From NCBI RefSeq assembly GCF_001245615.1, contig NZ_CWKH01000001.1, positions 2,356,001 through 2,420,000 of the forward strand: DNA of 64,000 nucleotides. Reading direction: 5' to 3'. The DNA is from Mycolicibacterium neworleansense. Its GTDB lineage: Bacteria > Actinomycetota > Actinomycetes > Mycobacteriales > Mycobacteriaceae. The notes below the pieces were generated by a model. The model saw only the letters and a list, made by a program, of their open reading frames with translations. It did no database searches and had not been told where the DNA came from. The position numbers and the translations under genes are program-made. How positions within the stretch are numbered: the stretch's first letter is position 1; each line of letters opens with the position of its first letter. This document shows, piece after piece, positions 18,644-31,723 of this stretch.

Positions 18644-19543
18644 GTGAGTGTGCGGGGCTGGTTGCTGCTGGGCGCCATGAGCATCATCTGGGGCATCCCG
18701 TACCTGCTGATCAAGATCGCGGTCGAAGGCGTCTCGGTACCCGTGCTGGTCCTGGCCCGCACGGCCGTGGGTGCCGCTGTGCTCCTCCCACTGGTGATGT
18801 CGCGCGCCGCCTGGGCGCCGGTGCTGCGGCACTGGCGGCCCGTACTGGCCTTCGCATTCTTCGAGATCATCGCGGCGTGGTTCCTGCTCACGGACGCCGA
18901 ACGCCACCTGAGCAGTTCCTTGACGGGCCTGCTGATCGCGACCGCACCGATCATCGCCGCGGTGCTCGACCGGCTCACCGGTGGAGAACGGTTGAGCGCC
19001 AAGCGGGTCACCGGACTCGGCATCGGTCTGGCCGGCGTGGCGGTGCTGGCCGGACCCGGGCTCGCCGGTGGGCACGGCTGGCCGATTGCCGAAGTGCTCT
19101 TGGTGGCAACGTGTTACGCGATCGCTCCGCTGATCGCAGCACGTTATCTGGGTGAGGTGCCGACGCTTCCGCTGACCGCGGCGTGTCTGACGGTCGCGGC
19201 GCTCATCTACGCCACTCCCGCCGCGCTGACCTGGCCCGACCACATGCCGTCGCGGCGCGTGCTGATCGCCCTGGCCGCGCTCGCCGTGATCTGCACGGCG
19301 CTGGCCTTCGTGGTGTTCTTCGCGCTCATCCGCGAAGTCGGGGGCGCGCGGGCGCTGGTCTTCACCTACGTCAACCCCGCCATTGCCCTGGCCGCCGGCG
19401 TCATCGTGCTCGGTGAACCGCTGACCGTCTACAACGTCGCCGGACTGGCACTGATCCTGCTCGGATCGATCCTGGCGACCCGCACCCCCCGCGATCCCGA
19501 TCCGCAGAGCGAAGCCGAACTCAGCCGCGCAGGCCCGCGCTGA
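18644..19543 (+). CDS. EamA/DMT-family membrane transporter
   Basis: 299 residues with ten predicted hydrophobic helices in two EamA repeats (about 5-137 and 145-285). The first repeat begins GWLLLGAMSIIWGIPYLLIK, and the second ends VIVLGEPLTVYNVAGLALIL, the usual family end motif. It starts with GTG at 18644, 42 bases after the aldolase stop, so it may ride on the catabolic transcript and export or import a pathway compound, but that is inference. The 3' end overlaps the convergent ferredoxin-reductase gene by 23 bases. Confidence 0.88.
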   Translation: MSVRGWLLLGAMSIIWGIPYLLIKIAVEGVSVPVLVLARTAVGAAVLLPLVMSRAAWAPVLRHWRPVLAFAFFEIIAAWFLLTDAERHLSSSLTGLLIATAPIIAAVLDRLTGGERLSAKRVTGLGIGLAGVAVLAGPGLAGGHGWPIAEVLLVATCYAIAPLIAARYLGEVPTLPLTAACLTVAALIYATPAALTWPDHMPSRRVLIALAALAVICTALAFVVFFALIREVGGARALVFTYVNPAIALAAGVIVLGEPLTVYNVAGLALILLGSILATRTPRDPDPQSEAELSRAGPR

Positions 19544-21107
19544 GCATCTCCTCGATCGACACGAACTTCACCCGCGGCCGGGCGGCCTGCACACCACGGT
19601 CCCGTTCGGCGGCATCGATCGCGCGCCACCCCGGCCAGCCGACGGGCTCGGCTCCCCTACTGGCCAACAACGCATCGAGCGACTCCCGGCCCTCGACGTC
19701 ACGGTTCAGCAGGCCGGCGTCGAAATCCGCCCACAACTGCGCCACGGTCTGCTCGGCGCACAGGCGGTTGGTACCGATCACCCCGCGGGGCCCGCGTTTG
19801 ATCCACCCGGTCACATAGGTACCGGGGACGACGCGACCAGACTCGTTGGGGACGGTGCCCGAGTCCTCGTCGTAGGGCAGCCCGGCGACCGGTAGGCCGC
19901 GGTATCCGATCGATCGCAGGATCAACGGCGTCTCGATCACCTCGGTGCCATGCGAATCACTGCGGACCGCCAGCCCTTCGGCGCGGTCGGTGCCCAGGAT
20001 CGCGACCGGCGTGGTGCCGAAGCGGAACACCACCCGCTTGTTCCCGAGCGTCGGTGTGCGCTGGGCATACTCGCGGGCGATGGCGAGCTTGAACGAGGTC
20101 TCGATGTCATCGTGCTCGTCATCGGGAGGAAGATCCGCGGGGTCGACGATGACGTCGACACCGTCGAGATGACCAAGGGCCAGGAACTCCCCCGCCGAGA
20201 ACGCCGCGTGGCCGATATCGCGCCGAGCCAGGATCACCACTTCCCGGATTGCGCTGCCGGCCAACGCATCAAGCGTGTGCTGGGCGATATCGGTGGCGGC
20301 CAGCGCCGCCCGGTCCATCAACAGCACCCGGGCGACATCAAGGGCCACGTTGCCGTTGCCGACGATGACCGCCCGCTCACCGGTCAGGTCGAACCGGTGG
20401 CCGGCGTGGTCAGGGTGACCGTTGTACCAACCGACGAACTCTGCCGCGGCGTGGTGACCCATCAGATCCTCGCCGTCGACTCCGAGTCGTCGGCTGGTGG
20501 CCGCCCCCACCGCATAGATGACCGCATGGTGATGGGCCAGCAGCTCATCGTGATTGACGGTGCGCCCGACCTCGACGTTGAAATGGCTGGCGAACCGCGG
20601 GTTGGTGAACGCCCGCTCGAAGATGTCGACCACCGACTTGGTGTGTTGGTGATCGGGTGCCACGCCCGCCCGGATCAGCCCGAACGGCGTAGGCAGCCGC
20701 TCGAACAAGTTGATCTCCACTCCGTCGACATCGATCAGCTCGGCGGCGGCGTAGCAGGCGGCCGGCCCCGATCCGACGATCGCAACCCGAAGCGATCCGG
20801 CGTCGACCCGCGACCGGGAGGCCGGCGCGGATGCGGTCACCGGCTCAAGTGGATGGCGCTCGAAGTAGGCGGCGTTGAGGTCCTTGAACCGCTGCAGTTC
20901 GCCCGGCAGATCCTCTTCGTAGTGGATTGCGCCGACCGGGCACTCCTCGAAGCACGCCCCACAGTCGATGCACGATTCCGGGTCGATGTAGAGCATCTCG
21001 GCCGAGGCCGAATCCAGCCCGCCCTCCGCCGGACGGATGCAGTCCACCGGACACACCGGAACGCAGCTGGCGTCCTTGCAGCAGTTCTGCGTGATCACGT
21101 AAGCCAT
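19521..21107 (-). CDS. fprB: Ferredoxin / ferredoxin-NADP+ reductase fusion (FprB family)
   Basis: 528 residues. An N-terminal bacterial ferredoxin domain (about 1-75) has C9/C10/C15/C19/C23 and C46, C49, C52, C56 in CIDCGACFEECPVGAI, giving two iron-sulfur clusters. It is followed by an adrenodoxin-reductase-like FAD/NADP domain (about 105-528) with VAIVGSGPAACYAAAELI, FERLPTPFGLIRAGVAPDHQ, VIVGNGNVALDVARVLL and a late GWIKRGPRGVIGTNR. It shuttles electrons between NADP(H) and ferredoxin partners such as P450s. The start ATG at 21107 has AGGGAAG just upstream. A GGACA-N2-TGTCC inverted repeat lies 35 bases in front of it. Confidence 0.93.
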   Translation of the reverse strand: MAYVITQNCCKDASCVPVCPVDCIRPAEGGLDSASAEMLYIDPESCIDCGACFEECPVGAIHYEEDLPGELQRFKDLNAAYFERHPLEPVTASAPASRSRVDAGSLRVAIVGSGPAACYAAAELIDVDGVEINLFERLPTPFGLIRAGVAPDHQHTKSVVDIFERAFTNPRFASHFNVEVGRTVNHDELLAHHHAVIYAVGAATSRRLGVDGEDLMGHHAAAEFVGWYNGHPDHAGHRFDLTGERAVIVGNGNVALDVARVLLMDRAALAATDIAQHTLDALAGSAIREVVILARRDIGHAAFSAGEFLALGHLDGVDVIVDPADLPPDDEHDDIETSFKLAIAREYAQRTPTLGNKRVVFRFGTTPVAILGTDRAEGLAVRSDSHGTEVIETPLILRSIGYRGLPVAGLPYDEDSGTVPNESGRVVPGTYVTGWIKRGPRGVIGTNRLCAEQTVAQLWADFDAGLLNRDVEGRESLDALLASRGAEPVGWPGWRAIDAAERDRGVQAARPRVKFVSIEEMLSAGLRG

Positions 21108-21141
21108 CGAACTTCCCTTTCAGATCTGGGCAGATCCTACT

Positions 21142-21153
21142 GGACACCTGTCC
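21142..21153. promoter_or_regulatory. Inverted repeat GGACA-N2-TGTCC upstream of fprB
   Basis: GGACACCTGTCC, the same palindrome as at 21284-21295 except for one centre base. It lies 35 bases upstream of the fprB start in the region shared with a divergent TetR gene. Likely an operator for that TetR; inference from repetition and position. Confidence 0.65.
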
Positions 21154-21283
21154 GATTTAGCGAGCCGGAAATCTCGTACACGCCCTCGTCGAGGGTCGAA
21201 CTGCACGAACATCCGTGCTGAAAATGTGTTGATACATGGTATTTCAGTTGGTGATTGCCAATCCGCGCTCGGGTCTATATCTT

Positions 21284-21295
21284 GGACACATGTCC
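21284..21295. promoter_or_regulatory. Inverted repeat GGACA-N2-TGTCC across the TetR start
   Basis: GGACACATGTCC, containing the probable ATG of the TetR gene (21290). Together with the copy at 21142 this gives one site for each divergent gene, the layout expected for an autoregulating repressor. Confidence 0.65.
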
Positions 21296-21868
21296 AGGCC
21301 AGCGGTGGCTACGGTCACCCGCCTCCATGACGCACAGGGTCAGCGCATCCGCACACAGCGCCGTGTCTTCGGCGCGGCGACGCAACTTCTCGATGCGCAC
21401 AGCGACGTCTCGGTACCGGCATTGGCGGCGCGCGCGAAGATGGCGCCCGCAGCGCTCTACGCACATTTCCCATCGATCGAGGTGGTGTTCGCCGAGCTGT
21501 ACCTGGACCGGGTGATTCAGCTGCCGCTGGACATCGACCCCGCTGCCAGCACCACCAGCCGGGTCACCGAGCAGCTCACCGCGCTGACGCTGTTGATGGC
21601 CGATGAGCCCCGGCTGGCCCGCGCCTGCACCCATGCGCTGGTGAGCACCGACGACGAGATGGTCGAAGATGTCCGGTCACGGATCGCCGCCGAGGTCAAC
21701 CGCCGGATCTCGACGGCTTTGGGTGGCGGAGCCTGGCCGGAGGTACTCGCCACCTTGGAATCGGTGTTCTGGGGCGCCCTCCTGCAGGCTCAAACGGGCG
21801 CGATGAGCTACCGGCAGATGGCCCGCCAGCTCGAGACCATGGTCTCGCTGATCGTCCCCGGTGGGTGA
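21290..21868 (+). CDS. TetR-family regulator divergent from fprB
   Basis: 192 residues from the ATG at 21290 (MSRPAVATVTRLHDAQGQR). An in-frame ATG at 21236 would add 18 residues, but the added part does not look like TetR sequence. The helix-turn-helix is at about residues 20-65: RRVFGAATQLLDAHSDVSV, AARAKMAPAALYAHFPSIE. The C-terminal domain is helical. The start codon lies inside a GGACA-N2-TGTCC palindrome, so the transcript may be leaderless or tightly autoregulated. A role in controlling fprB is inferred. It is convergent with the allophanate hydrolase gene, 9 bases apart. Confidence 0.85.
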   Translation: MSRPAVATVTRLHDAQGQRIRTQRRVFGAATQLLDAHSDVSVPALAARAKMAPAALYAHFPSIEVVFAELYLDRVIQLPLDIDPAASTTSRVTEQLTALTLLMADEPRLARACTHALVSTDDEMVEDVRSRIAAEVNRRISTALGGGAWPEVLATLESVFWGALLQAQTGAMSYRQMARQLETMVSLIVPGG

Positions 21869-21877
21869 ATCAGGCGC

Positions 21878-23539
21878 TCACGCCATCGCAGCCAACCAGC
21901 CCCGGTACCCGGTGATGTCACGGCCTTGCGTGGGAGCGATGTGGTCACAACCGAAACCGGTGATCCAGCGGCCGTCGTCGAGTTCCACCTTCCCGAGCAG
22001 CATCGGCGCCGGCAACTCAGCGAGGAACTCTCCGAGCGCGCCCGGCGACAACAGCCACCGCTCACCCACGATCGGCGCCCCGCCCTCGTCGACGCGGGTC
22101 AGGCCCGGCTTGGGCGGAACCGTGTCGAGAGCGTAGAGGCGGTAGTGCGGGGCCGTGGTGATCGGGCCGGCCCAACGGGCACCCCGACCGGTGAGCTGAT
22201 GCTCCAACGGCTGGCCACGCAGATGCGCTCCGAACACCGCGAGTTCGGTCAGCGGCGCACCGCCGGATTCAGGCCAGGTCTCGGCCGACGGAACATCCAA
22301 GAATCGCGCCGCCAGTTCCGCGATGACGCCGTCGTGAAATGCCGTTGCGAGCAGGGTGATTCCGAACTGCGCACCGTCAGAAGTCATTCCCGCGGGAACC
22401 GCGATGGCGCACATGTCGAAGAGGTTGCAGAAGTTGGTGTAGCGGCCCATCCGCGAGTTCACCGCGACAGGGTCGGCCGCGACCTCGTCCATGCGCGGAT
22501 GCTCGGGGGCGGTCGGGACCATGAGCGCGTGACAGCCCTCGAGCTGCGTCAGCGCTGCGCGCCGTAACTCCTCGACCCGCCTGCGATCACGCAGCAGATC
22601 GGCCGCCGAGTAGGTCCCGGCAGCGGTGACGATCGCGGCCACGGTCGGGTCCAGCTTCGCATCAGGGCCGGCGGTGCTGATGAACTCCCCTACCGCATCC
22701 CACCTTTCGGCCACGAGTGCGCCGTTGTAGAGCAGGCCGGCCGCCGCGAAGAAGTCGTCCATCGGGATCGGCACCGTATCGAATCCGGCATCGTTGGCCT
22801 GGCGCACGGCGGCCTCGAAGGCTGTCCGCCAGGCGTCGTCGAGACCCGCCAACGAATCCGGGATTCCGATTCTGGGAGTCACCGGTGCGGCGAAGCGAAC
22901 ATCGGCCGGCCACTGGCGTTGCGGCGCAGCGGCACTCATCACGGCCATCGCAGACTCCGCGGTGACCAGATCCGCGGCAAAAATCGTCACACAGTCATAA
23001 CTGGCACAGGCCGGAACCACACCCTCGGTGGAGACCAGGCCAATGGTGGGCTTGATCCCGACGATTCCCTGCAGCCCGGCCGGCACACGACCCGACCCGG
23101 CGGTGTCGGTGCCGATCGCGATGTCGGCGAATCCGAGTGCCACGGCAACCGCCGATCCGGAACTCGACCCGCCGGAAATGTAGTCGGGCCGGCGGGAATC
23201 CCGCACGGCGCCATAGGGACTGCGGGTGCCGACCAAGCCGGTGGCGAACTGGTCGAGATTGGTCTTCCCGATGACGACAACACCGGCGGCCTTGAGAGCG
23301 GCGACCGCCGGTGCGTCGGCATCGGGAATATAACTGAAATCTGGGCATGCCGCAGTGGTCGGCACTCCTGCGACATCGACGTTGTCCTTGACCGCCAGCA
23401 CCAATCCGGCCAACGGCCCGTCACCCGCCAGCGCCGCACGGTGATCGGCTTCGACCTCCGCCTGCGGACGAAGGTGGATGAATACCTCGTCGCGTCCGGC
23501 TTCGGCGATCTTGCGGTAGATCTCGGCAATGCGAGTCAC
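21878..23539 (-). CDS. atzF: Allophanate hydrolase (AtzF/DUR1,2 amidase half)
   Basis: 553 residues from GTG at 23539, with AGGAG 7 bases upstream. It hydrolyses allophanate to ammonia and CO2. The amidase-signature domain (about 1-420) keeps Lys in AVKDNVDVAG, YISGGSSSGSAVAVALG and the nucleophile Ser in IGTDTAGSGRVPAGLQG. The C-terminal AtzF domain (about 435-553, from LTELAVFGAHLRGQPL to ITGFGCDH) distinguishes it from ordinary amidases. It is the last gene of a five-gene operon and overlaps the carboxyltransferase gene by 4 bases. The order permease, DUF1989 pair, carboxylase, allophanate hydrolase is the urea/guanidine carboxylase operon. Confidence 0.94.
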   Translation of the reverse strand: MTRIAEIYRKIAEAGRDEVFIHLRPQAEVEADHRAALAGDGPLAGLVLAVKDNVDVAGVPTTAACPDFSYIPDADAPAVAALKAAGVVVIGKTNLDQFATGLVGTRSPYGAVRDSRRPDYISGGSSSGSAVAVALGFADIAIGTDTAGSGRVPAGLQGIVGIKPTIGLVSTEGVVPACASYDCVTIFAADLVTAESAMAVMSAAAPQRQWPADVRFAAPVTPRIGIPDSLAGLDDAWRTAFEAAVRQANDAGFDTVPIPMDDFFAAAGLLYNGALVAERWDAVGEFISTAGPDAKLDPTVAAIVTAAGTYSAADLLRDRRRVEELRRAALTQLEGCHALMVPTAPEHPRMDEVAADPVAVNSRMGRYTNFCNLFDMCAIAVPAGMTSDGAQFGITLLATAFHDGVIAELAARFLDVPSAETWPESGGAPLTELAVFGAHLRGQPLEHQLTGRGARWAGPITTAPHYRLYALDTVPPKPGLTRVDEGGAPIVGERWLLSPGALGEFLAELPAPMLLGKVELDDGRWITGFGCDHIAPTQGRDITGYRGWLAAMA

Positions 23540-25530
23540 GCGGACTCCTTTCGTGCGAATTCTCCTGCCGCCGCCCAACGCTCGCGTTCCTCGGCCCGTG
23601 CCGCCTCCATCGCCGTGCGGGTCGCGGCGATGTCATCGGCGTTGGCGGCCAGGAACTGCTCGTGCTCGGCCAGCGAGAAGGTACCGTCGGCGATCTCGAC
23701 GACGCCGCGTCCGGCGGCCATATCGGCGCGCAGGTCCAGCAGCTCGTCAGCGGATACCGGGTACCACTGGATGCGATCGAAAAACCGTAACAGCCATGGG
23801 TGTTCGGGATCGAAGCCTTGCGCGACCAGGGGGTGACGGTGGTTCCAGATCTGTGTGGTCCGGCCGACGAACTGGTAGCCGCCCGGCCCCTCCATCCCGT
23901 AGACGCACAGGTATGCCCCACCGATTCCGACGGCGTTCTCCGGCGTCCAGGTCCGCGCCGGGTTGTACTTGGTGGTGACCAGACGATGACGTGGGTCCAG
24001 CGGTGTCGCGACCGGAGCCCCCAGATACACATCGCCGAGGCCCAGCACCAGATACTCGGCGTCATAGACGATTCGGTGCACATCATCGACCGAGGCCAGG
24101 CCGTTCATCCGCCGGATGAACTCGATGTTCCACGGGCACCAGGGTGCGTCGGCGCGCACGCCGTGCATGTAGCGTTCGATCGCCTCCCGGGTCGAGGGGT
24201 CATCCCAGCTCAGCGGCAACCGCACGGTGCGACTGGGCACCACGAGGTCCTGCGCGGCGGGCAACGAGGCTTCGAGTTCGGCCAGCAGCGGCACCAACCT
24301 CGACTGCGGGAGCCGGGCCGGGTCGACCTTGACCTGTAGCGAACGGATGCCGGGAGTGAGATCGATCAGTCCGTCCGGCCGATGCTGTTCCAGCGCGTGG
24401 TGCAGTGCGTGCGCACGCGCCCGCAGCGCCAGGTCCAGCCGCATCTCACCGTACTCGACCAGGACGTTGTCATCCCCGATCCGCCGATAAGTGACGGCCG
24501 TGCTGCCGTCCGATGAGGTTGTGCCGCCGATGATTCCGTAGTCCTCATCGCCGCCGGCGGAGAACACCGCAGAGATCGAGGCGCGCCGGGCCGGTCCGAC
24601 GGTCGCGGGCGGGGGTGCCGCCGAGGCCTTGACCGGGACGAACCGGATGGTGGCGCCGGGGGCGAGTTGTCCGAGTTTCCAGCGGTCGGCCGCGGTGACG
24701 GTGACCGGGCAGACGAAGCCGCCGAGGCTGGGGCCGTCCGGACCCAGCAGGATCGGGGTGTCCCCGGTGAAGTCGAGCGAACCCACCGAATAGGCGTTGT
24801 CGTGAATGTTCGACGGGTGCAGTCCGGCTTCCCCGCCGTCGGGGCGGGCCCATTCGGGCTTCGGCCCGATCAACCGGACACCTGTGCGGTCGGAGTTGAA
24901 GTGCACCTCGTAATCGTGGTTGAGCAGTGTGTCTATGTCGTTGCGCGTGAAGAACTCCGGCGCCGAGTGCGGGCCGACGGTGACTGCGATGTGCCAGTGG
25001 CTGCCGATGGCCGGCTGCTCTTCGAACAGGATGCGCCGACGGACACCGCGCACGGCATCGCTGGTTTCCAGCTTGTCCCCCACCGTCAGCGCGCGGCCCT
25101 CGTGGCCGCCGAACCGGCCGAGGGTGAATGTCGATGCGCTACCCAGGTATTCGTCGGCTTGCAGCCCGCCCTCGATTGCGATGTAGATCCGCAGGCCCGG
25201 GCCGTCGACCAACCCCACGTCGAGGACCTGACCGGCCTCGACACGAACCGGTACCCACTGCGCCACGCGTGTTCCGTCGACGCTCACCGGGGCGGGCGCG
25301 CCGGTGACACATACCCAGGTGTCAGTGTCAAACCGCAAAGCCGGTCCGCCCATTGTGGCCTCCAGCGCGGGCGCGCCCTCCGGGTTGCCCACCGCGACGT
25401 TGGCCAACCGGAAAGACACGTCGTCCATCGGCCCCGAGGGCGGCACCCCGATCTGCCAGTACCCGGTCCGCCCAGGCCAATCCTGGACGGTGGTGGCCAT
25501 ACCCGGTCGGATCACCTCCATGGTGCTCAT
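23536..25530 (-). CDS. Urea/guanidine carboxylase-type carboxyltransferase lacking biotin carboxylase and biotin carrier domains
   Basis: 664 residues. Residues 1 to about 315 are the KipA/AHS2-type half (VIRPGMATTVQDWPGRTGYW, GVPPSGPMDDVSFRLAN). About 335-580 is the KipI/AHS1-type half with the longer urea-carboxylase insertions (APWCPWNIEFIRRMNGLASV, KYNPARTWTPENAVGIGGAY, GGYQFVGRTTQIWNHRHPL). The tail up to ESA matches the segment that normally leads into the biotin carrier. A complete urea carboxylase is about 1200 residues, with a biotin carboxylase domain in front and a carrier domain with its lysine at the end; both are absent here. It overlaps atzF and the upstream DUF1989 gene by 4 bases each. 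Confidence 0.88.
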   Translation of the reverse strand: MSTMEVIRPGMATTVQDWPGRTGYWQIGVPPSGPMDDVSFRLANVAVGNPEGAPALEATMGGPALRFDTDTWVCVTGAPAPVSVDGTRVAQWVPVRVEAGQVLDVGLVDGPGLRIYIAIEGGLQADEYLGSASTFTLGRFGGHEGRALTVGDKLETSDAVRGVRRRILFEEQPAIGSHWHIAVTVGPHSAPEFFTRNDIDTLLNHDYEVHFNSDRTGVRLIGPKPEWARPDGGEAGLHPSNIHDNAYSVGSLDFTGDTPILLGPDGPSLGGFVCPVTVTAADRWKLGQLAPGATIRFVPVKASAAPPPATVGPARRASISAVFSAGGDEDYGIIGGTTSSDGSTAVTYRRIGDDNVLVEYGEMRLDLALRARAHALHHALEQHRPDGLIDLTPGIRSLQVKVDPARLPQSRLVPLLAELEASLPAAQDLVVPSRTVRLPLSWDDPSTREAIERYMHGVRADAPWCPWNIEFIRRMNGLASVDDVHRIVYDAEYLVLGLGDVYLGAPVATPLDPRHRLVTTKYNPARTWTPENAVGIGGAYLCVYGMEGPGGYQFVGRTTQIWNHRHPLVAQGFDPEHPWLLRFFDRIQWYPVSADELLDLRADMAAGRGVVEIADGTFSLAEHEQFLAANADDIAATRTAMEAARAEERERWAAAGEFARKESA

Positions 25531-26147
25531 GGGCGCGTCACGACCATTCGCACCGCGGTCGGATCAAACCCGTTGCACGGGTTGTTGATCTGCGGGCAGT
25601 TCGACACCAGCACCAGGGTGTCGATCTCGGCACGCAGCGACACGGTCTTGCCCGGGGCGGACAAGCCGTCGACGATCCCCAGCGCACCGTCCGGATCCAC
25701 CGGCACGTTCATGAAGAAGTTGATGTTGCTGACGATGTCGGCCTTGGTCAGCCCCCACCGGGCACCCTCGCCGATGAAGTTCTCGACGCATGCGTGCTGA
25801 TGCTTGGTGTGGTGCCCGTAGCGCAGCGTGTTGGATTCCTGTGAGCAGGCGCCGCCGAGCGTGTCGTGATTGCCGACCTCGTCGTCGACGATGGTGAGCA
25901 TCGGCTCACCGTCACTGTCGCGCAGCACCGTTCCGGTGGTCAGGAAGATGTTTCCCTGCGCCGCTATGGTGGCCGGGGCGCTGTAACGCACGCCGTGATC
26001 GGATGCCCCGTAGAACAGAGTGTCCACGGCCTGATTCCCGTGCAGGTCCACGATGGTGAGCACGTCACCGGCTCGCACGACCTTCGACCACGGGGCGCGG
26101 GGTGCGACGATTTCGTCGACGATGGTGTGGGCGGCGGTGATGGTCAT
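25527..26147 (-). CDS. DUF1989 urea-carboxylase-associated protein (carboxyguanidine deiminase subunit type)
   Basis: 206 residues. DUF1989 proteins occur in pairs next to urea carboxylase genes (once called UAAP1/2). Work on guanidine use assigned such pairs to carboxyguanidine deiminase, which removes ammonia from carboxyguanidine to give allophanate. Family features are VVRAGDVLTIVDLHGNQAVD, FYGASDHGVRYSAPATI, GGACSQESNTLRYGHHTKHQ and NFFMNVPVDPDGALGI, with Cys and His residues likely to bind metal. It overlaps both neighbours by 4 bases. The assignment of the deiminase role follows the operon rather than any residue I can prove. Confidence 0.88.
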   Translation of the reverse strand: MTITAAHTIVDEIVAPRAPWSKVVRAGDVLTIVDLHGNQAVDTLFYGASDHGVRYSAPATIAAQGNIFLTTGTVLRDSDGEPMLTIVDDEVGNHDTLGGACSQESNTLRYGHHTKHQHACVENFIGEGARWGLTKADIVSNINFFMNVPVDPDGALGIVDGLSAPGKTVSLRAEIDTLVLVSNCPQINNPCNGFDPTAVRMVVTRP

Positions 26148-26971
26148 CGGGCACTCCAGACGTCTTCGGAATTCAGGTAGGCACGTTGGTATTCGGGGTC
26201 ACGGTCACCGATCGTCCTACCGATCTCGGCCAGGTCACCGGGTGCCGACCAGGCCAGCACTTCGAGCGAGCCGACGGTGAACCGGGTAGCCGGGTCCAGC
26301 GGGTGTGCGGTGTTGGCGACGGCCACGATCAGCGGCAGGTGGGTGATCAGTTCGACGGTCGTGCCGGCACCGGCAGACCCGGTCGACACCAGCGCGCCGT
26401 CGGCGTCCACGCGCACTCCGTGGAAGAACGACAGGCTGGGTGCCACATCGCGCCGGGTCAGGCCGTTCTTGAGGGCGGCCAGGGCGAGCAGCTCGCGCCC
26501 GGCGGGACTGGGTGACTCCACGTCGCCCGCACCGTATTTGGCCGTGTTACCGGACCGCGTGGTGGTGCCGCACAGGGCGTCGTGGTGGCCGGAGGTGTCC
26601 GACACCAGGGTGGCCAGCACCCGGCCCTGGTCACTCAGCAGCGGGTGGCCCGCCGAAAGATAGGCCTGCCAGGGCACTTTCACGGTGTCGGCGACGTTGA
26701 GCCGCTCCCAGGGCGCGTCCGCCCGCCACAACAGCAGATGTGCGCACGCGGTGCCGTCCAGATCGCGCAGCCGCAACCGGGTGCCGCGCGCCAGCACCTT
26801 GTTGGTGTAGCGGCCACCGGGAACCGTTTCGGCCCAGGTCAACTGCTCGGGAGCCACGCCCTGCGGCGGGGTCGGCCAGCGAGAGGCCGGCACGACGGGC
26901 ATCGAGTCGGTGATGGCGCCGGCCTGGGCGCGGGCATGGTCGCGAGCGCCGGCGGTCGTCGCAGTGGTCAT
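26144..26971 (-). CDS. DUF1989 urea-carboxylase-associated protein, second subunit type
   Basis: 275 residues from the ATG at 26971 (MTTATTAGARDHARAQ); the frame stays open to 27073, but that part lies in the permease gene. The DUF1989 core has VPGGRYTNKVLARGTRLRL, LRDLDGTACAHLLLWRADAP, HHDALCGTTTRSGNTAKYG and SLSFFHGVRVDADGAL, parallel to the smaller partner just downstream. The two genes are paralogues and probably form a heteromer. It begins 2 bases after the permease stop and overlaps the next gene by 4 bases, so the operon is tightly coupled. Confidence 0.87.
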   Translation of the reverse strand: MTTATTAGARDHARAQAGAITDSMPVVPASRWPTPPQGVAPEQLTWAETVPGGRYTNKVLARGTRLRLRDLDGTACAHLLLWRADAPWERLNVADTVKVPWQAYLSAGHPLLSDQGRVLATLVSDTSGHHDALCGTTTRSGNTAKYGAGDVESPSPAGRELLALAALKNGLTRRDVAPSLSFFHGVRVDADGALVSTGSAGAGTTVELITHLPLIVAVANTAHPLDPATRFTVGSLEVLAWSAPGDLAEIGRTIGDRDPEYQRAYLNSEDVWSAR

Positions 26972-26973
26972 TC

Positions 26974-28515
26974 TCAAGCTCCGATCGTGACGGGGTTCGG
27001 GTGGGTCTTTCCGCGGGGGAAGCACAGGGCGCCAAGGACCACCGCGGCGGCGATGCTCAAGGGTCCGGCCCACTGCAGGATCGGCAGTTCCCCGGTGGGG
27101 TTGAAGATCTCGGCCCGCGGCCAGCCCAGATTGACGATCATCACGGCGCCGTAGAGCACCGCCAGGACGTTCACCGCGATGCCGAACTTGCCGAGTGAGA
27201 ACAGCGGCAGGCCTTCGGCGTCGACCTGGTTACGCTGGGCGGGCCAGCCTTTGAGCCGTCGATACAGCAGCGGTGCGGTGACCAACAGATAAGCCAGGTA
27301 GATAAGGATGATGCAGACGCTGGCCAGGGTGGCGAAGATGGCCGAGTTGCCGACATTGACCAGAAGCACCCCGATACACAGCAGGCCGATGAGCACCGAC
27401 GGCCAGATCGGTGTGCCGGTGTGGCTGTTGACCCGGGACAGGATCGAGGAGGCCGGCAGGCGCCCGTCGCGGGCCATCGAGAACATCAACCGTGAGGCCG
27501 CGGTCTGAATTGCCAAGGTGCAGATCGTGATCGCGATGGAGACATCGATCAGTAGCACTGTGCCCCACGGTGAGGACAACACGGTGTCGAGAACATAGGG
27601 CAGACCCTCGGTGGCCAGGCGTCCGTCGGTCAGGCTCGGTGCCGCCATCAGGGCCCCCAGAATCATCAGCCCACCGCCGAGCGCTGAAACCGAAAGGGCC
27701 AACCGGATGGTGCGGGGCGCGACGCGACGCGGGTTGCGGGTCTCCTCGGCGAGTTCGCCGGCCGAGCCGAAACCGACCATGACGTAGGCGGCCATCAGGC
27801 CCGACATGATCCAGGCCCAGATGTAGCCGGGCTGGCCGCCGGCGTGGCCGGTGTCGAACACAACCTGCGGTCCGCGCTGGGCATGGGTGAAGAACACGCC
27901 GATGACAGCGATGACGCCGACGATCTCACAGATCACCCCGGCACTGTTGACGCGTGACATCCATTTGACACCAAGGCAATTGATCGTGGTGGTGAGCACC
28001 AGCAATACCGTGCCGAGCAGCACGGCGTTGGCGGCGCCACTCGGTGAGGTCAGAGCCGGGTCCTCCCCGATCACCTGGAATCCGGACCAGATCGACGGCA
28101 GCACCACCTGCAACGCGATCGCCGCGGCCGAGGCGGTGACGATCTGCGCCAGGATCATGAACCAGCCGCCGAACCAGCCGACCACCTCGCCGCCCATCCG
28201 CCGGGACCACTGATAGATGGCCCCTGAGATCGGATAGCGCGCCGCCAGCTCCGCGAAACACAGAGCGACGAGGAACTGGCCGAGGAACACCGCAGGCCAG
28301 GTCCAGAAGAAGGCGGGACCGCCGAAGCCGAACCCGAGGCCGAACAACTGGAAGATCGTGGTCAGAATGGACACGAACGAAAAGCCCGCGGCGAACGACT
28401 CGAACTTGCCGAGCCGACGGTGCAACTGCTGGTCATAACCAAACTCGGCCAGGTCGTCATGGTCGCCGAAACGGCCGGCCACATCTCGCGGGCTCTCGGT
28501 CGCGCTGCTGGTCAT
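26974..28515 (-). CDS. APC-family amino acid/amine permease of the urea-carboxylase operon
   Basis: 513 residues, about 12 membrane helices after a soluble N-terminus of about 45 residues. Features are FAAGFSFVSILTTIFQLFGL (first helix, near 40), the APC motif ELAARYPISGAIYQWSRRMG, and VGFGSAGELAEETRNPRRVA after helix 6, as in GABA/choline-type transporters. It heads the operon, so it probably imports the substrate whose nitrogen is released: urea, guanidine, or a guanidino or amine compound. The start ATG at 28515 faces a 172-base region shared with the divergent nucleotidyltransferase gene. I recognise no guanidine riboswitch there. Confidence 0.9.
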   Translation of the reverse strand: MTSSATESPRDVAGRFGDHDDLAEFGYDQQLHRRLGKFESFAAGFSFVSILTTIFQLFGLGFGFGGPAFFWTWPAVFLGQFLVALCFAELAARYPISGAIYQWSRRMGGEVVGWFGGWFMILAQIVTASAAAIALQVVLPSIWSGFQVIGEDPALTSPSGAANAVLLGTVLLVLTTTINCLGVKWMSRVNSAGVICEIVGVIAVIGVFFTHAQRGPQVVFDTGHAGGQPGYIWAWIMSGLMAAYVMVGFGSAGELAEETRNPRRVAPRTIRLALSVSALGGGLMILGALMAAPSLTDGRLATEGLPYVLDTVLSSPWGTVLLIDVSIAITICTLAIQTAASRLMFSMARDGRLPASSILSRVNSHTGTPIWPSVLIGLLCIGVLLVNVGNSAIFATLASVCIILIYLAYLLVTAPLLYRRLKGWPAQRNQVDAEGLPLFSLGKFGIAVNVLAVLYGAVMIVNLGWPRAEIFNPTGELPILQWAGPLSIAAAVVLGALCFPRGKTHPNPVTIGA

Positions 28516-28687
28516 AGGCGTTTTCTCTCAGGTTCGGGGGCGGTGCCGCCGGCTCCTTAACTGTCACTTGATAGATAAGCGTGCCGGCGTGTCCGAGCTG
28601 TCACCCGCGTGTTTCGTTCATGTAGCCAGCGGTAAGCATTGCGTTGCCGAAACCTCACCGGACCCTTTGCCTGTCACAATCGCCGAC

Positions 28688-29704
28688 ATGGTTGTGGCTC
28701 CGTTGGACGATGCCCACCGGCGCCTGGCGTCGGCGGCCGGCGAGAGCGAGCTGGTGACGGCCGCTGCCGCAGCCCACGATGCGGTGAAGACGGTGATCGA
28801 CACCCGCGTCGGGGCCGCCTCGGTTGCGGAGGCATGGTCGGCAGTGGCCCGCGCCGCGCTGTCGACCGCGGCACGGCTGGTGTCCCCCGGCATCGCCTGG
28901 TACGCCTCGGGCAGCGTCGGCCGCGGTGACGCACTCCCCGGATCGGACCTGGAAACGCTGGTGGTCCGCGGCACCGACGTCACCGCGGAGTCTGCCCTGG
29001 CCCAGGCTGCGCACGTCCATGACCTGTTGGCGTGTTGCGGGTTCCGCGCCGACGACAACGGCGCGGTCGCCTCGCGGATCCGGTTCAACCGCACCGCCCA
29101 GGACTGGGCGGTCGGCATCGGACGCTGGGCCGCCGACCCAGCCGCTGATCGGGGGGTGGTGATGATCGGCCTGCTGGCCGACGCCGTTGCTCTCGGCGAC
29201 GGACCCGACCTGCGCGACCAGGCCGGTATCGCCGCGAGAGCGCAACCGCCCGCGCTCGCCGCGATGCTGCAGGACGCCACCTTCGCTCGCGCCTACGTCC
29301 CGTCCCGGCTGCGCGCGCTGGCCGGCGGTGACAGCGGTGTCGACATCAAACACGCCGCCGTCGACCCGGTGGTCCGGATCGCACGCTGGGCCGCACTCAG
29401 TTGCGGCTCAGACGCGCTGCCCACCGCCGAAAGGATCGCCGCGGCGGCCGGCACCCGCTACCTCGATGCCGACGACGCCCGGGTGCTGGCGAAATGCCAC
29501 GCGATCGGGTCCAGCATCCGGTGGCGGGTGCGGGGTGCGCACTGGAATTCCGCCGTTGACGTCGACGGCTTCGACGAGCGTGTCGAACTGTCGGAACTCT
29601 CACCGCAGGACCGCGCCGCCCTGCGCAGCATCGGCCGCGAACTGACCGGGGTACGACGCAAACTCGACTACCTGGCGTCGACCTCGACGTTCTCCACGTG
29701 GTAG
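28688..29704 (+). CDS. DUF294-like nucleotidyltransferase
   Basis: 338 residues from the ATG at 28688; the frame extends upstream to 28568 with no family support. The polymerase-beta-type signature is WYASGSVGRGDALPGSDLET at about residues 71-90, giving GS-x2-R, SD and a final acidic residue, the pattern of GlnD-like DUF294 nucleotidyltransferases. The rest is helical, and no cyclic-nucleotide or CBS domains are seen, unlike many DUF294 proteins. Its 3' end overlaps a fic gene by 7 bases, so two nucleotide-transferring proteins appear to be made together. The substrate is unknown. Confidence 0.8.
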   Translation: MVVAPLDDAHRRLASAAGESELVTAAAAAHDAVKTVIDTRVGAASVAEAWSAVARAALSTAARLVSPGIAWYASGSVGRGDALPGSDLETLVVRGTDVTAESALAQAAHVHDLLACCGFRADDNGAVASRIRFNRTAQDWAVGIGRWAADPAADRGVVMIGLLADAVALGDGPDLRDQAGIAARAQPPALAAMLQDATFARAYVPSRLRALAGGDSGVDIKHAAVDPVVRIARWAALSCGSDALPTAERIAAAAGTRYLDADDARVLAKCHAIGSSIRWRVRGAHWNSAVDVDGFDERVELSELSPQDRAALRSIGRELTGVRRKLDYLASTSTFSTW

Positions 29705-30507
29705 CCGAGCCCGACGAGGTCGCGCGTCACGCCCTCGCCCAGACCATCGCCGCCGAACGCCTGGAAGGCTGGAAGCCCACCCAGGAGCAGGTCGACGCCC
29801 TGACCGCGTTGCTCACCGGCACCGAGAGCTTCGGGGAGTACCTCGGACGGCACCTCCCCGCCCCCGCCCCACCACCGCGTCGGCGCGTGTTCGCCCGGCG
29901 CCGGCCGTACTTCATTCCAGGAACGTCGGTGTTGCGCAACAACTTCGGCGTGCAGGATGCCACAGTGCTCGCGCAATTGGAATTCGTGGCGACCGCCGGC
30001 CGAATCTTGCAGGTACACCTGCGCACCCGGGACGCGGATCTGAACATTCGATCCCTGCATCAGCACGTGTTCGGCGACGTGTACGCGTGGGCAGGCGAGC
30101 CACGGATCGTCGAACTCCGCAAGGGTGACAGCGCTTTCGGTCCATGTGCACGCATTCCGCACGCCCTGGAGGGACTGCATGCCGAGATCGGCAGGCTCGC
30201 CGAGGAAGGTGCCGACATCGATGACGGCACGCTGTCCTATCGACTGGCCCGGATCTATGCCGACTACAACCAGATCCATCCGTTCCGCGAAGGAAATGGA
30301 CGCACCGGCACCCTGCTGCTGCATCTGCTCGCCCGCCGGGCCGCACGCCGGCTACACCTCGATGACATGTCCCGTTCGGAGTGGATCAGTGCGTCTCAGG
30401 ACTCGATGCCCTTCCGACGCGACGGCCGCGCCGATCCACGGCCGTTCGTAGCCGTGCTACGGGGACGATTGCGGCCCGAGCCCTCTGTACAGCCCGAGAG
30501 CGCCTGA
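29698..30507 (+). CDS. Fic-domain protein with a fused VbhA-like inhibitory N-terminus
   Basis: 269 residues from the GTG at 29698. The Fic motif HPFREGNGRTGT is at 194-205; H194 (catalytic), E198 and N200 are present, but the final Arg of HxFx(D/E)GNGRxxR is Thr. The beta-hairpin flap is about 130-155. Residues 10-45 (ARHALAQTIAAERLEG, then WKPTQEQVDALTALL) resemble the VbhA antitoxin, whose inhibitory motif is (S/T)xxxE(G/N); here A19-E20-R21-L22-E23-G24 keeps the inhibitory Glu but has Ala in place of Ser/Thr. Fic enzymes usually transfer AMP to protein hydroxyls. It is coupled to the nucleotidyltransferase upstream. Confidence 0.88.
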   Translation: MVAEPDEVARHALAQTIAAERLEGWKPTQEQVDALTALLTGTESFGEYLGRHLPAPAPPPRRRVFARRRPYFIPGTSVLRNNFGVQDATVLAQLEFVATAGRILQVHLRTRDADLNIRSLHQHVFGDVYAWAGEPRIVELRKGDSAFGPCARIPHALEGLHAEIGRLAEEGADIDDGTLSYRLARIYADYNQIHPFREGNGRTGTLLLHLLARRAARRLHLDDMSRSEWISASQDSMPFRRDGRADPRPFVAVLRGRLRPEPSVQPESA

Positions 30508-30512
30508 GCCGC

Positions 30513-31112
30513 CTACGGATTCGGATCCGTCAGATACCGCTGCACCGTGGGCCCCATCCAGGCGACCAGGTCATCGATACCGGCCGAGGCCAGCGGTTCG
30601 ATCTTGAGCTGGTAGCGGGCGAAGGCCAGGCCGACCAGGTGCACAGTCACCAACTCCACGCGCAGCTCAGCGTTGTCGACAGAGAACTCCGCCGACACCC
30701 GCTGGGCCACCGGCCCGGCCAGCGAGTCGTGTAAGAGCTTGCGCGCCAACGGCTGAATTCCCGCCGACCGGAACACCGTCAGCAACGGGTCGAAGGACCC
30801 GCCCTCGTCCCACCGCTGAACGAAATCGCGGACCAGGCGCGCGCCGATGTCGTCGACCCCCTCGTCGAGCAGATTCGCCAACTGATGCAGGGGGTGCTGA
30901 GGTGTGTCGAGCACCGACGCGTTGAACAGCCCCTCTTTGTTGCCGAAGAAGTAGTAGACCATCGCGACGTCTACGCCGGCATCGGCGGCAATCCCACGCA
31001 CTGTCGCGCGTTCATAACCGTGAAGTGTGAAGTGTTCACGCGCCGCATCGATGATGCGCTGCTTGTTCTGTTGGCCCGTGCGCCACCGGCCACTGCGCCC
31101 GGACTCTGACAT
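30513..31112 (-). CDS. TetR-family regulator
   Basis: 199 residues. The helix-turn-helix is at about residues 15-62: NKQRIIDAAREHFTLHGYER, then DAGVDVAMVYYFFGNKEGLF. The C-terminal domain (PQHPLHQLANLLDEGVDD onwards) matches the TetR_C type common in mycobacteria. It is divergent from the membrane methyltransferase gene at 31202; the 89 bases between hold two inverted repeats sharing the half TTCAAC, probably its operators. It is convergent with the fic gene, 5 bases apart. Confidence 0.88.
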   Translation of the reverse strand: MSESGRSGRWRTGQQNKQRIIDAAREHFTLHGYERATVRGIAADAGVDVAMVYYFFGNKEGLFNASVLDTPQHPLHQLANLLDEGVDDIGARLVRDFVQRWDEGGSFDPLLTVFRSAGIQPLARKLLHDSLAGPVAQRVSAEFSVDNAELRVELVTVHLVGLAFARYQLKIEPLASAGIDDLVAWMGPTVQRYLTDPNP

Positions 31113-31127
31113 GCGTCGAAGTTTAGT

Positions 31128-31141
31128 TCAACAACTGTTGA
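31128..31141. promoter_or_regulatory. Inverted repeat TCAACA-N2-TGTTGA
   Basis: A perfect 6+6 palindrome 15 bases in front of the TetR start. The half-site resembles that of the second repeat at 31169-31190. Candidate operator for autoregulation. Confidence 0.55.
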
Positions 31142-31168
31142 CCTATGCGGAAGTCGCAGCGTAGCGTT

Positions 31169-31190
31169 TTCTTCAACATGAGTTGAAGAA
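31169..31190. promoter_or_regulatory. Inverted repeat TTCTTCAAC-N4-GTTGAAGAA
   Basis: A perfect 9+9 palindrome 11 bases in front of the methyltransferase start, just before its GGAG ribosome site. Candidate operator of the divergent TetR; as RNA it could also form a hairpin near the start. Confidence 0.6.
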
Positions 31191-31201
31191 AGGAGTTCGA
31201 C

Positions 31202-31723
31202 ATGACGAAACGGCGACTCTGGTGGCGGCACACGATCTCGGTGCTGATCGCCCCGGCCACCATGACGGTCTTCATCCCGGGCCTGATCATCTGGCTGACC
31301 GGAGTGAAAGCCCCGGACCTCAGCGCCCTGTCCGGACTGCTCCTCGCTGTCACGGGAGCGCTTCTGATCGCGCTCGGCCTGTGGTTTCTGATCTGGACCG
31401 TGGTGCTGTTCGACCGCGTCGGCGAAGGCACATTGGCCATCGGCTCTCCGGTCAACCTCGTGCTGCGCGGGCCGTATCGCCACGTCCGGAATCCGATGAT
31501 GACCGCGGTGTTCTGCATTCAGCTCGGTACCGCCGTCGCCACGGCCTCACCCTGGTTGTTCGCTTGGTTCGCGCTGTTCTGCACGATCGTCGCGATTGCG
31601 ATCCCGGCTGTGGAGGAGCCGCACCTGACGAGGCGGTTCGGCGCGCAGTACGAGGACTACCGCCGACATGTGCCGCGCTGGATTCCTCGGATGAGGCCGT
31701 GGGTTCCGAGCCACGCCAACTGA
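31202..31723 (+). CDS. Membrane methyltransferase-like protein (isoprenylcysteine methyltransferase/PEMT fold)
   Basis: 173 residues, about four membrane helices. The C-terminal part has the ICMT/PEMT pattern: GPYRHVRNPMMTAVFCIQLG (near 91-110), then a helix and VEEPHLTRRFGAQYEDYRRH with the usual E..L...FG..Y..Y...V.R. Such proteins bind S-adenosylmethionine at the membrane; substrates in bacteria are mostly unknown. ATG at 31202 with AAGGAG upstream. Probably under control of the divergent TetR. Confidence 0.8.
   Translation: MTKRRLWWRHTISVLIAPATMTVFIPGLIIWLTGVKAPDLSALSGLLLAVTGALLIALGLWFLIWTVVLFDRVGEGTLAIGSPVNLVLRGPYRHVRNPMMTAVFCIQLGTAVATASPWLFAWFALFCTIVAIAIPAVEEPHLTRRFGAQYEDYRRHVPRWIPRMRPWVPSHAN

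Follow-up and report, generated by a model that had tools for sequence, protein, structure and literature searches.

In the window, that is, the whole analysed stretch of 64,000 nucleotides from Mycolicibacterium neworleansense (contig NZ_CWKH01000001.1, positions 2,356,001 to 2,420,000), the gene at 23536..25530 on the minus strand encodes a guanidine/urea carboxylase of 664 residues that consists of its two carboxyltransferase (CT) halves only: the biotin carboxylase (BC) and the biotin carrier (BCCP) of the fused enzymes are missing. Judged from sequence comparison, this CT-only feature is real, is conserved in several genera and is most simply of one origin. Beyond the operon in the window, it is found across much of a bacterial family. 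With a probability of about 0.7, the protein is a CT subunit for which an alpha subunit of BC-BCCP type, shared with other enzymes, acts as the donor in trans. Genomes, contigs and loci are denoted below by G, C and L numbers, G000 being the genome of the window.

The proposed mechanism is as follows. In the Mycobacterium-Nocardia-Rhodococcus family, a guanidine carboxylase would have lost its own BC and carrier domains, probably in a single event. A housekeeping BC-BCCP alpha subunit, most likely AccA3, would supply carboxybiotin in trans, and the CT would transfer its carboxyl group to guanidine. UAAP1 and UAAP2 would convert the carboxyguanidine to allophanate, from which AtzF would free ammonia, and the pathway would be under nitrogen (GlnR) control.

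Domain content and active site of the carboxyltransferase protein

A Pfam scan of the protein detected CT_A_B (residues 27-299) and CT_C_D (residues 347-565) only. The alignment with the TIGR02712 urea_carbox profile covered positions 447-1116 of 1201 and reached 975.8 bits, whereas the cut-off is 1303.85. This means that the profile parts before (BC) and after (BCCP) the aligned region are missing. An N-terminal BC was found by Pfam and TIGR02712 neither in the chain nor in the operon or the flanking DNA examined, and a C-terminal biotin carrier with the biotin lysine motif was not found in the protein. The original prediction, made from the DNA letters, had described two CT halves lacking BC and carrier, and these scans bear it out.

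Compared with the fused BC-CT-BCCP guanidine/urea carboxylases (TIGR02712; PDB 3va7 and 5i8i), the protein has a CT that is homologous over its full length, the same fold, the same operon partners and the same active-site Asp described below, whereas BC and BCCP are absent from its chain, its operon and the flanks examined. The AlphaFold2 model had a pLDDT of 81.1 and a pTM of 0.85, with low confidence at residues 234-236, 267-270 and much of 499-559. The best matches of this model in a fold search were 5i8i and 3va7, both K. lactis urea carboxylase (TMq 0.80-0.81). In the genome, which is rated 100% complete, the search for another urea carboxylase yielded a PxpC-type protein as the sole further match. 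A full-length enzyme in the same genome, which the original prediction had named as the observation that would speak against it, was thus searched for and not found.

The active site was compared column by column after removal of five duplicates. A total of 167 columns were invariant in 55 fused enzymes and the K. lactis enzyme, and 156 of these were kept in at least 95% of the 84 CT-only rows; in every single CT-only row, the kept fraction of the invariant columns is 95.2% or more. In the A/B half, the CT-only rows keep 77 of 84 invariant columns, compared with 41 in the PxpC-type protein of the same genome. This agrees with the earlier claim that the protein carries features of urea carboxylase rather than of 5-oxoprolinase subunits. 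The PxpC model (NF045499) and the PxpB model (TIGR00370) gave 138.3 and 33.1 bits, below their cut-offs of 500 and 145.55, and the scan of seven neighbouring genes, a count that includes the CT, showed no PxpA family member.

PxpC-PxpB type pairs (3mml; MSMEG_0435-MSMEG_0436 in 9yx5) resemble the window CT in having CT_A_B and CT_C_D halves and no fused biotin parts; they differ in being two chains instead of one. The pair of the same genome, encoded elsewhere (L007), aligns with the window CT at 31% (A/B) and 25% (C/D) and lacks many of the urea-carboxylase columns. PxpB and PxpC homologues work without fused biotin parts, and the gene and operon here are likewise without any biotin part. These points would suit a biotin-free function, for instance an ATP-dependent reaction resembling the one carried out by the PxpBC part of 5-oxoprolinase, or a step on carboxyguanidine. 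The columns of the biotin-dependent enzymes are, however, kept where the PxpC-type protein differs, the CT-only form takes the place of the fused carboxylases amid the same genes and behind the same kind of box, and even the PxpB/PxpC relatives are listed together with AccA3 in 9yx5. A new, biotin-free function, which the original prediction had put forward as an option, is therefore disfavoured by the kept active-site columns and seems quite improbable.

According to a passage in PMC12186494, an Asp in the CT active site marks guanidine enzymes and an Asn marks urea enzymes. The residue is Asp in all 84 CT-only rows and in 54 of the 55 fused rows. Asp253 of the window protein aligns with Asn1330 of K. 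lactis urea amidolyase, the position that we take to be the substrate determinant. Guanidine is thus the likelier substrate compared with urea; both this substrate and the dependence on biotin are what we infer. For the original prediction, which had left guanidine and urea side by side, this tips the balance to guanidine, and the feature is spread over much of the family instead of peculiar to one operon. The only fused row with Asn at the determinant (L201; G408:C18:210709-212682) is likely a true urea carboxylase within the family.

Spread and origin of the CT-only form

Among 109 related loci (L016-L124), 67 were CT-only and 42 fused, the latter including L104, a fused gene cut by a contig end that was moved from the CT-only set. 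UAAP1 and UAAP2 adjoin the CT at all 67 CT-only loci, and no BC frame was present near any of them within flanks of approximately 1.5 kb a side (29 loci) or up to 8 kb (38 loci). The C-terminal end of the CT-only proteins is the point where the fused enzymes run into the carrier linker. Named holders belong to at least eight genera: Mycobacterium/Mycolicibacterium, Williamsia, Gordonia, Rhodococcus, Rhodococcoides, Nocardia, Skermania and Dietzia. In the wider family, the CT was detected (E up to 1e-150) in at least 263 of 401 genomes and at least 25 of 31 genera, CT-only and fused forms taken together; of 20 family genomes picked for a closer look, 9 had the CT-only and 11 the fused form as judged by frame length. 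A protein search, whose size range leaves out full-length enzymes, found 6279 relatives, and by Pfam all 120 among the matches listed have two CT domains only.

Within the genus (297 genomes), the CT-only form was present in 78 genomes and the fused form in 36, with 1 of these genomes counted under both; neither form was present in 182, and 2 held broken copies. The comparison with other mycobacterial operons suggested by the original prediction thus found the CT-only form in other genomes as well. The two forms rarely co-occur: 1 genome holds both, compared with 9.5 expected (Fisher p 0.0002; relatedness ignored). That genome is G145, with copies at G145:C95:2797-4791 and G145:C21:44583-46568, and it offers a natural case for distinguishing what the two forms do. 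The broken copies (G231:C2:179990-181807 and G249:C19:169834-171817) and an additional CT copy in G254, which begins at the end of a contig, were left unclassed. CT-only proteins currently carry the names urea amidolyase, urea carboxylase or 5-oxoprolinase/urea amidolyase family protein, and these annotations would be affected by the reading proposed here.

In a tree of 93 rows (LG+G4, quick search), all 53 CT-only rows lie beyond one branch with an SH-aLRT of 99, nested in the fused enzymes. These rows (53 CT-only and 40 fused) remained after thinning at 90% identity; before it there were 84 CT-only rows and 56 fused rows, K. lactis included in the latter. One change between fused and CT-only is needed on this tree, and the neighbouring group consists of fused enzymes of other Mycobacterium genomes. 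Since the CT-only rows form one clade nested in the fused enzymes, a single ancient loss of the BC and carrier domains is suggested.

It might be supposed that the gene is a broken, functionless urea carboxylase, produced by decay or by the assembly; broken copies do occur in two of the 297 genus genomes (G231 and G249). This explanation is most improbable in view of the whole frames at the 67 loci in at least eight named genera, the uniform two-domain content of the listed relatives, and the depth of the clade, every row of which keeps at least 95% of the invariant columns. An assembly gap, which had been named beforehand as a possible cause, is ruled out by the 67 whole loci, the listed relatives and the single clade: the homologues reveal a conserved CT-only protein instead.

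Candidate donors of carboxybiotin

The search of the genome for BC-BCCP proteins, which had been recommended together with the original prediction, gave five BC proteins, of which two are pyruvate carboxylases and the remaining three are alpha subunits. The identity of AccA3 was confirmed by its match to the alpha3 chain of 9yx5, and the other two alpha subunits are presumably AccA1 and AccA2. In addition, a free biotin carrier of 72 residues with the motif ESMKM is encoded at L013 (G000:C1:2562688-2562903, minus strand), which we take to be of the Rv3221c/TB7.3 type. A close relative of this carrier (E up to 6e-19) was detected in 22 of 26 CT-only genomes and not in G303, G332, G325 and G626.

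A dedicated BC gene was rejected as the donor. The mean number of BC genes was 4.85 in CT-only genomes (n=75), 4.62 in genomes with neither form (n=167, p 0.17) and 5.94 in fused genomes (n=35); the set with neither form comprises all 167 such genomes at least 90% complete, G070 and G274 (less than 90% complete) and G145 (both forms) were left out, and G052 (fused, 87% complete) was kept. CT-only genomes therefore have no significant excess of BC genes, and none occurs in the flanks examined. This means that the partner should be a housekeeping protein.

Sharing of an alpha subunit has precedent. AccA3 is described as common to several mycobacterial carboxylases in the part of PMC11001197 consulted, and a passage in PMC13118682 reports that in Streptomyces one kind of alpha subunit pairs with several beta subunits. 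The mycobacterial acyl-CoA carboxylases (AccA3 with AccD4, AccD5 or AccD6) thus resemble the proposal in having one BC-BCCP alpha subunit and several CT partners (PMC11001197, same part); the AccD carboxyltransferases differ in being of an unrelated kind, according to a section of PMC3199775, and in acting on acyl-CoA. Another precedent came from the fold search: by its title, 9yx5 is the M. smegmatis long-chain acyl-CoA carboxylase complex with MSMEG_0435-MSMEG_0436 bound, and the PxpC- and PxpB-type proteins of the present genome match its chains V and W in sequence comparison. In 9yx5, to judge by title and chain list, AccA3 thus occurs in one entry with a CT-like pair related to the window protein, which sets a precedent.

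The shared-alpha principle is already known. The same section of PMC3199775 treats fused urea carboxylases, some of them in Actinobacteria, and unstudied gene pairs resembling the two CT halves, and it contains no single CT-only enzyme. Searches of open-licence papers turned up no description of a guanidine or urea carboxylase in CT-only form.

AccA3 is the likeliest partner in trans, and we infer it as such with about even confidence. For the original prediction, this means that a shared subunit acting in trans fits the evidence and has a precedent in 9yx5, while AccA3 as such is not singled out by the data. The donor might also be AccA1, AccA2, pyruvate carboxylase or the free carrier loaded by some BC, or it might depend on the lineage. 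This alternative is rather unlikely; it overlaps with the reading of a shared alpha subunit, which leaves open which alpha subunit is used. The candidates were compared in the low-BC set, that is, the nine of 34 family genomes counted that have three or fewer BC genes each. AccA3 was detected in 8 of these nine, AccA2 in 8, AccA1 in 7 and pyruvate carboxylase in 3. AccA2 was not found in G448, nor AccA1 in G332 and G303, and the distribution of pyruvate carboxylase and the four genomes without a close relative of the free carrier likewise argue against these donors. Of the candidates, it is AccA3 that a solved complex (9yx5) contains alongside CT-like proteins.

Several observations weigh against AccA3, or against the proposed pathway as a whole. 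AccA2 equals AccA3 in frequency in the low-BC set and occurs in G303, where AccA3 was not found (G303:C1, 3157527 bases; rated 99% complete). Two AccA3 neighbour genes known from G332 have no close match in G303 either, and elimination among the alpha subunits leaves AccA3 alone only with G303 set aside. The carrier profile of the fused enzymes gave AccA3 52.4 bits, the lowest of six, and preferred AccA2 (68.8) and the free carrier (63.7), the latter being present in most of the CT-only genomes searched. In their BC profile AccA3 was second (472 bits) to AccA1 (503); the pyruvate carboxylase entries in this test are the C-terminal part only, so that their BC scores are meaningless. In L186 and L187 (two genomes of one genus), the gene for an AccA1-type alpha subunit is located at a distance of a few kb from the CT operon and is oriented towards it. 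Column conservation cannot tell biotin contacts from substrate contacts, and the statistics on co-occurrence and BC counts are uncorrected for relatedness. No guanidine riboswitch was found in window positions 19000-31500 or in 25 CT-only and fused loci. Finally, AtzF had no match in the flanks examined at 19 of 38 named CT-only loci, which means that the pathway is not linked everywhere.

The fuller version of the shared-subunit reading, namely that the protein plugs into AccA3, whose role as alpha subunit is in making precursors of fatty and mycolic acids, in the Mycobacterium-Nocardia-Rhodococcus family after one ancient loss of two domains, nitrogen scavenging and lipid synthesis sharing one carboxybiotin pool, seems evenly balanced. 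If it holds, this would be a guanidine/urea carboxylase that acts as a detached subunit and relies on a shared biotin carrier; the open-licence papers searched contained no such arrangement. Nitrogen assimilation would be tied to the mycobacterial lipid carboxylases, and a multidomain enzyme would have been pared down once a general donor subunit was available.

Genes for biotin-dependent proteins were also encountered close to CT genes. Pyruvate carboxylase near the CT in L206, L207 and L209, as well as AccA1 in L186 and L187, was put down to chance, as these genes apparently form separate transcription units. Another split arrangement was observed in five genomes of the genus Mycobacterium, where a stand-alone BC frame (452-466 residues) lies approximately 1 kb before a CT_A_B-type gene (G160:C23:85248-87407, G266:C89:15269-17392, G152:C32:187889-190099, G225:C1:1901394-1903556 and G154:C62:81793-84018). 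These pairs resemble the proposal in having a CT-like protein with a separate BC, but differ in the closeness of the BC and in the CT, which is 36-38% identical to the window CT in the A/B half. A lipoyl-domain frame in the genome of the window (L008; G000:C1:634845-635060, minus strand) stops after 126 residues in an arginine-rich tail and may reflect a frameshift in a gene for a dehydrogenase E2.

Operon, GlnR-type box and neighbouring genes

The operon runs on the minus strand in the order permease, UAAP1, UAAP2, CT and atzF, and is intact. The permease of the urea carboxylase system (26974..28515; TIGR03428), UAAP1 (DUF1989; 26144..26971; TIGR03425), UAAP2 (DUF1989; 25527..26147; TIGR03424) and allophanate hydrolase AtzF (21878..23539; TIGR02713) are all above the cut-offs of their own models. 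The completeness of the operon apart from the carboxylase, as originally described, was thus upheld. The UAAP1 open reading frame opens at 27073, and its start at 26971 was placed at the onset of homology; that of atzF opens at 23578, and its start is probably a GTG. UAAP2 is one of two subunits of carboxyguanidine deiminase type. UAAP2 and CT overlap by four nucleotides (ATGA), and so do CT and atzF (GTGA), via the likely GTG start. These overlaps mean that no gene or segment was lost between the three genes, and they suggest translational coupling. CT-only loci with no AtzF in the flanks examined are L063, L069, L070, L052, L056, L064 and 13 more, some of them also without the permease.

A candidate GlnR-type box, GCTACATGAACGAAACA, lies at 28610..28626 on the minus strand, approximately 95 nucleotides before the permease start, and fits the M. 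smegmatis consensus perfectly. In the part of PMC3662644 consulted, this consensus is given as Gn2AC-n6-GnAACA, a GlnR site precedes MSMEG_2184, a permease gene marked as the first of its operon, and the urea amidolyase MSMEG_2187 is named as GlnR regulated. The window holds one perfect box, compared with a chance mean of 1.42 per window; its position, not its presence, is what counts, because one match is also expected by chance. Across the named loci, boxes within 300 nucleotides of the first gene were present at 18 of 38 CT-only and 21 of 39 fused loci, compared with 1.8% of random pieces (consensus without the last A; three fused loci without a visible UAAP1 left out).

Beyond atzF, a convergent TetR-type regulator gene was identified by open reading frame and domain scan (21236..21868, plus strand). 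Beyond this gene, positions 19521-21107 on the minus strand encode a protein in which a ferredoxin-type 4Fe-4S part is joined to a part of the pyridine nucleotide-disulphide oxidoreductase kind.

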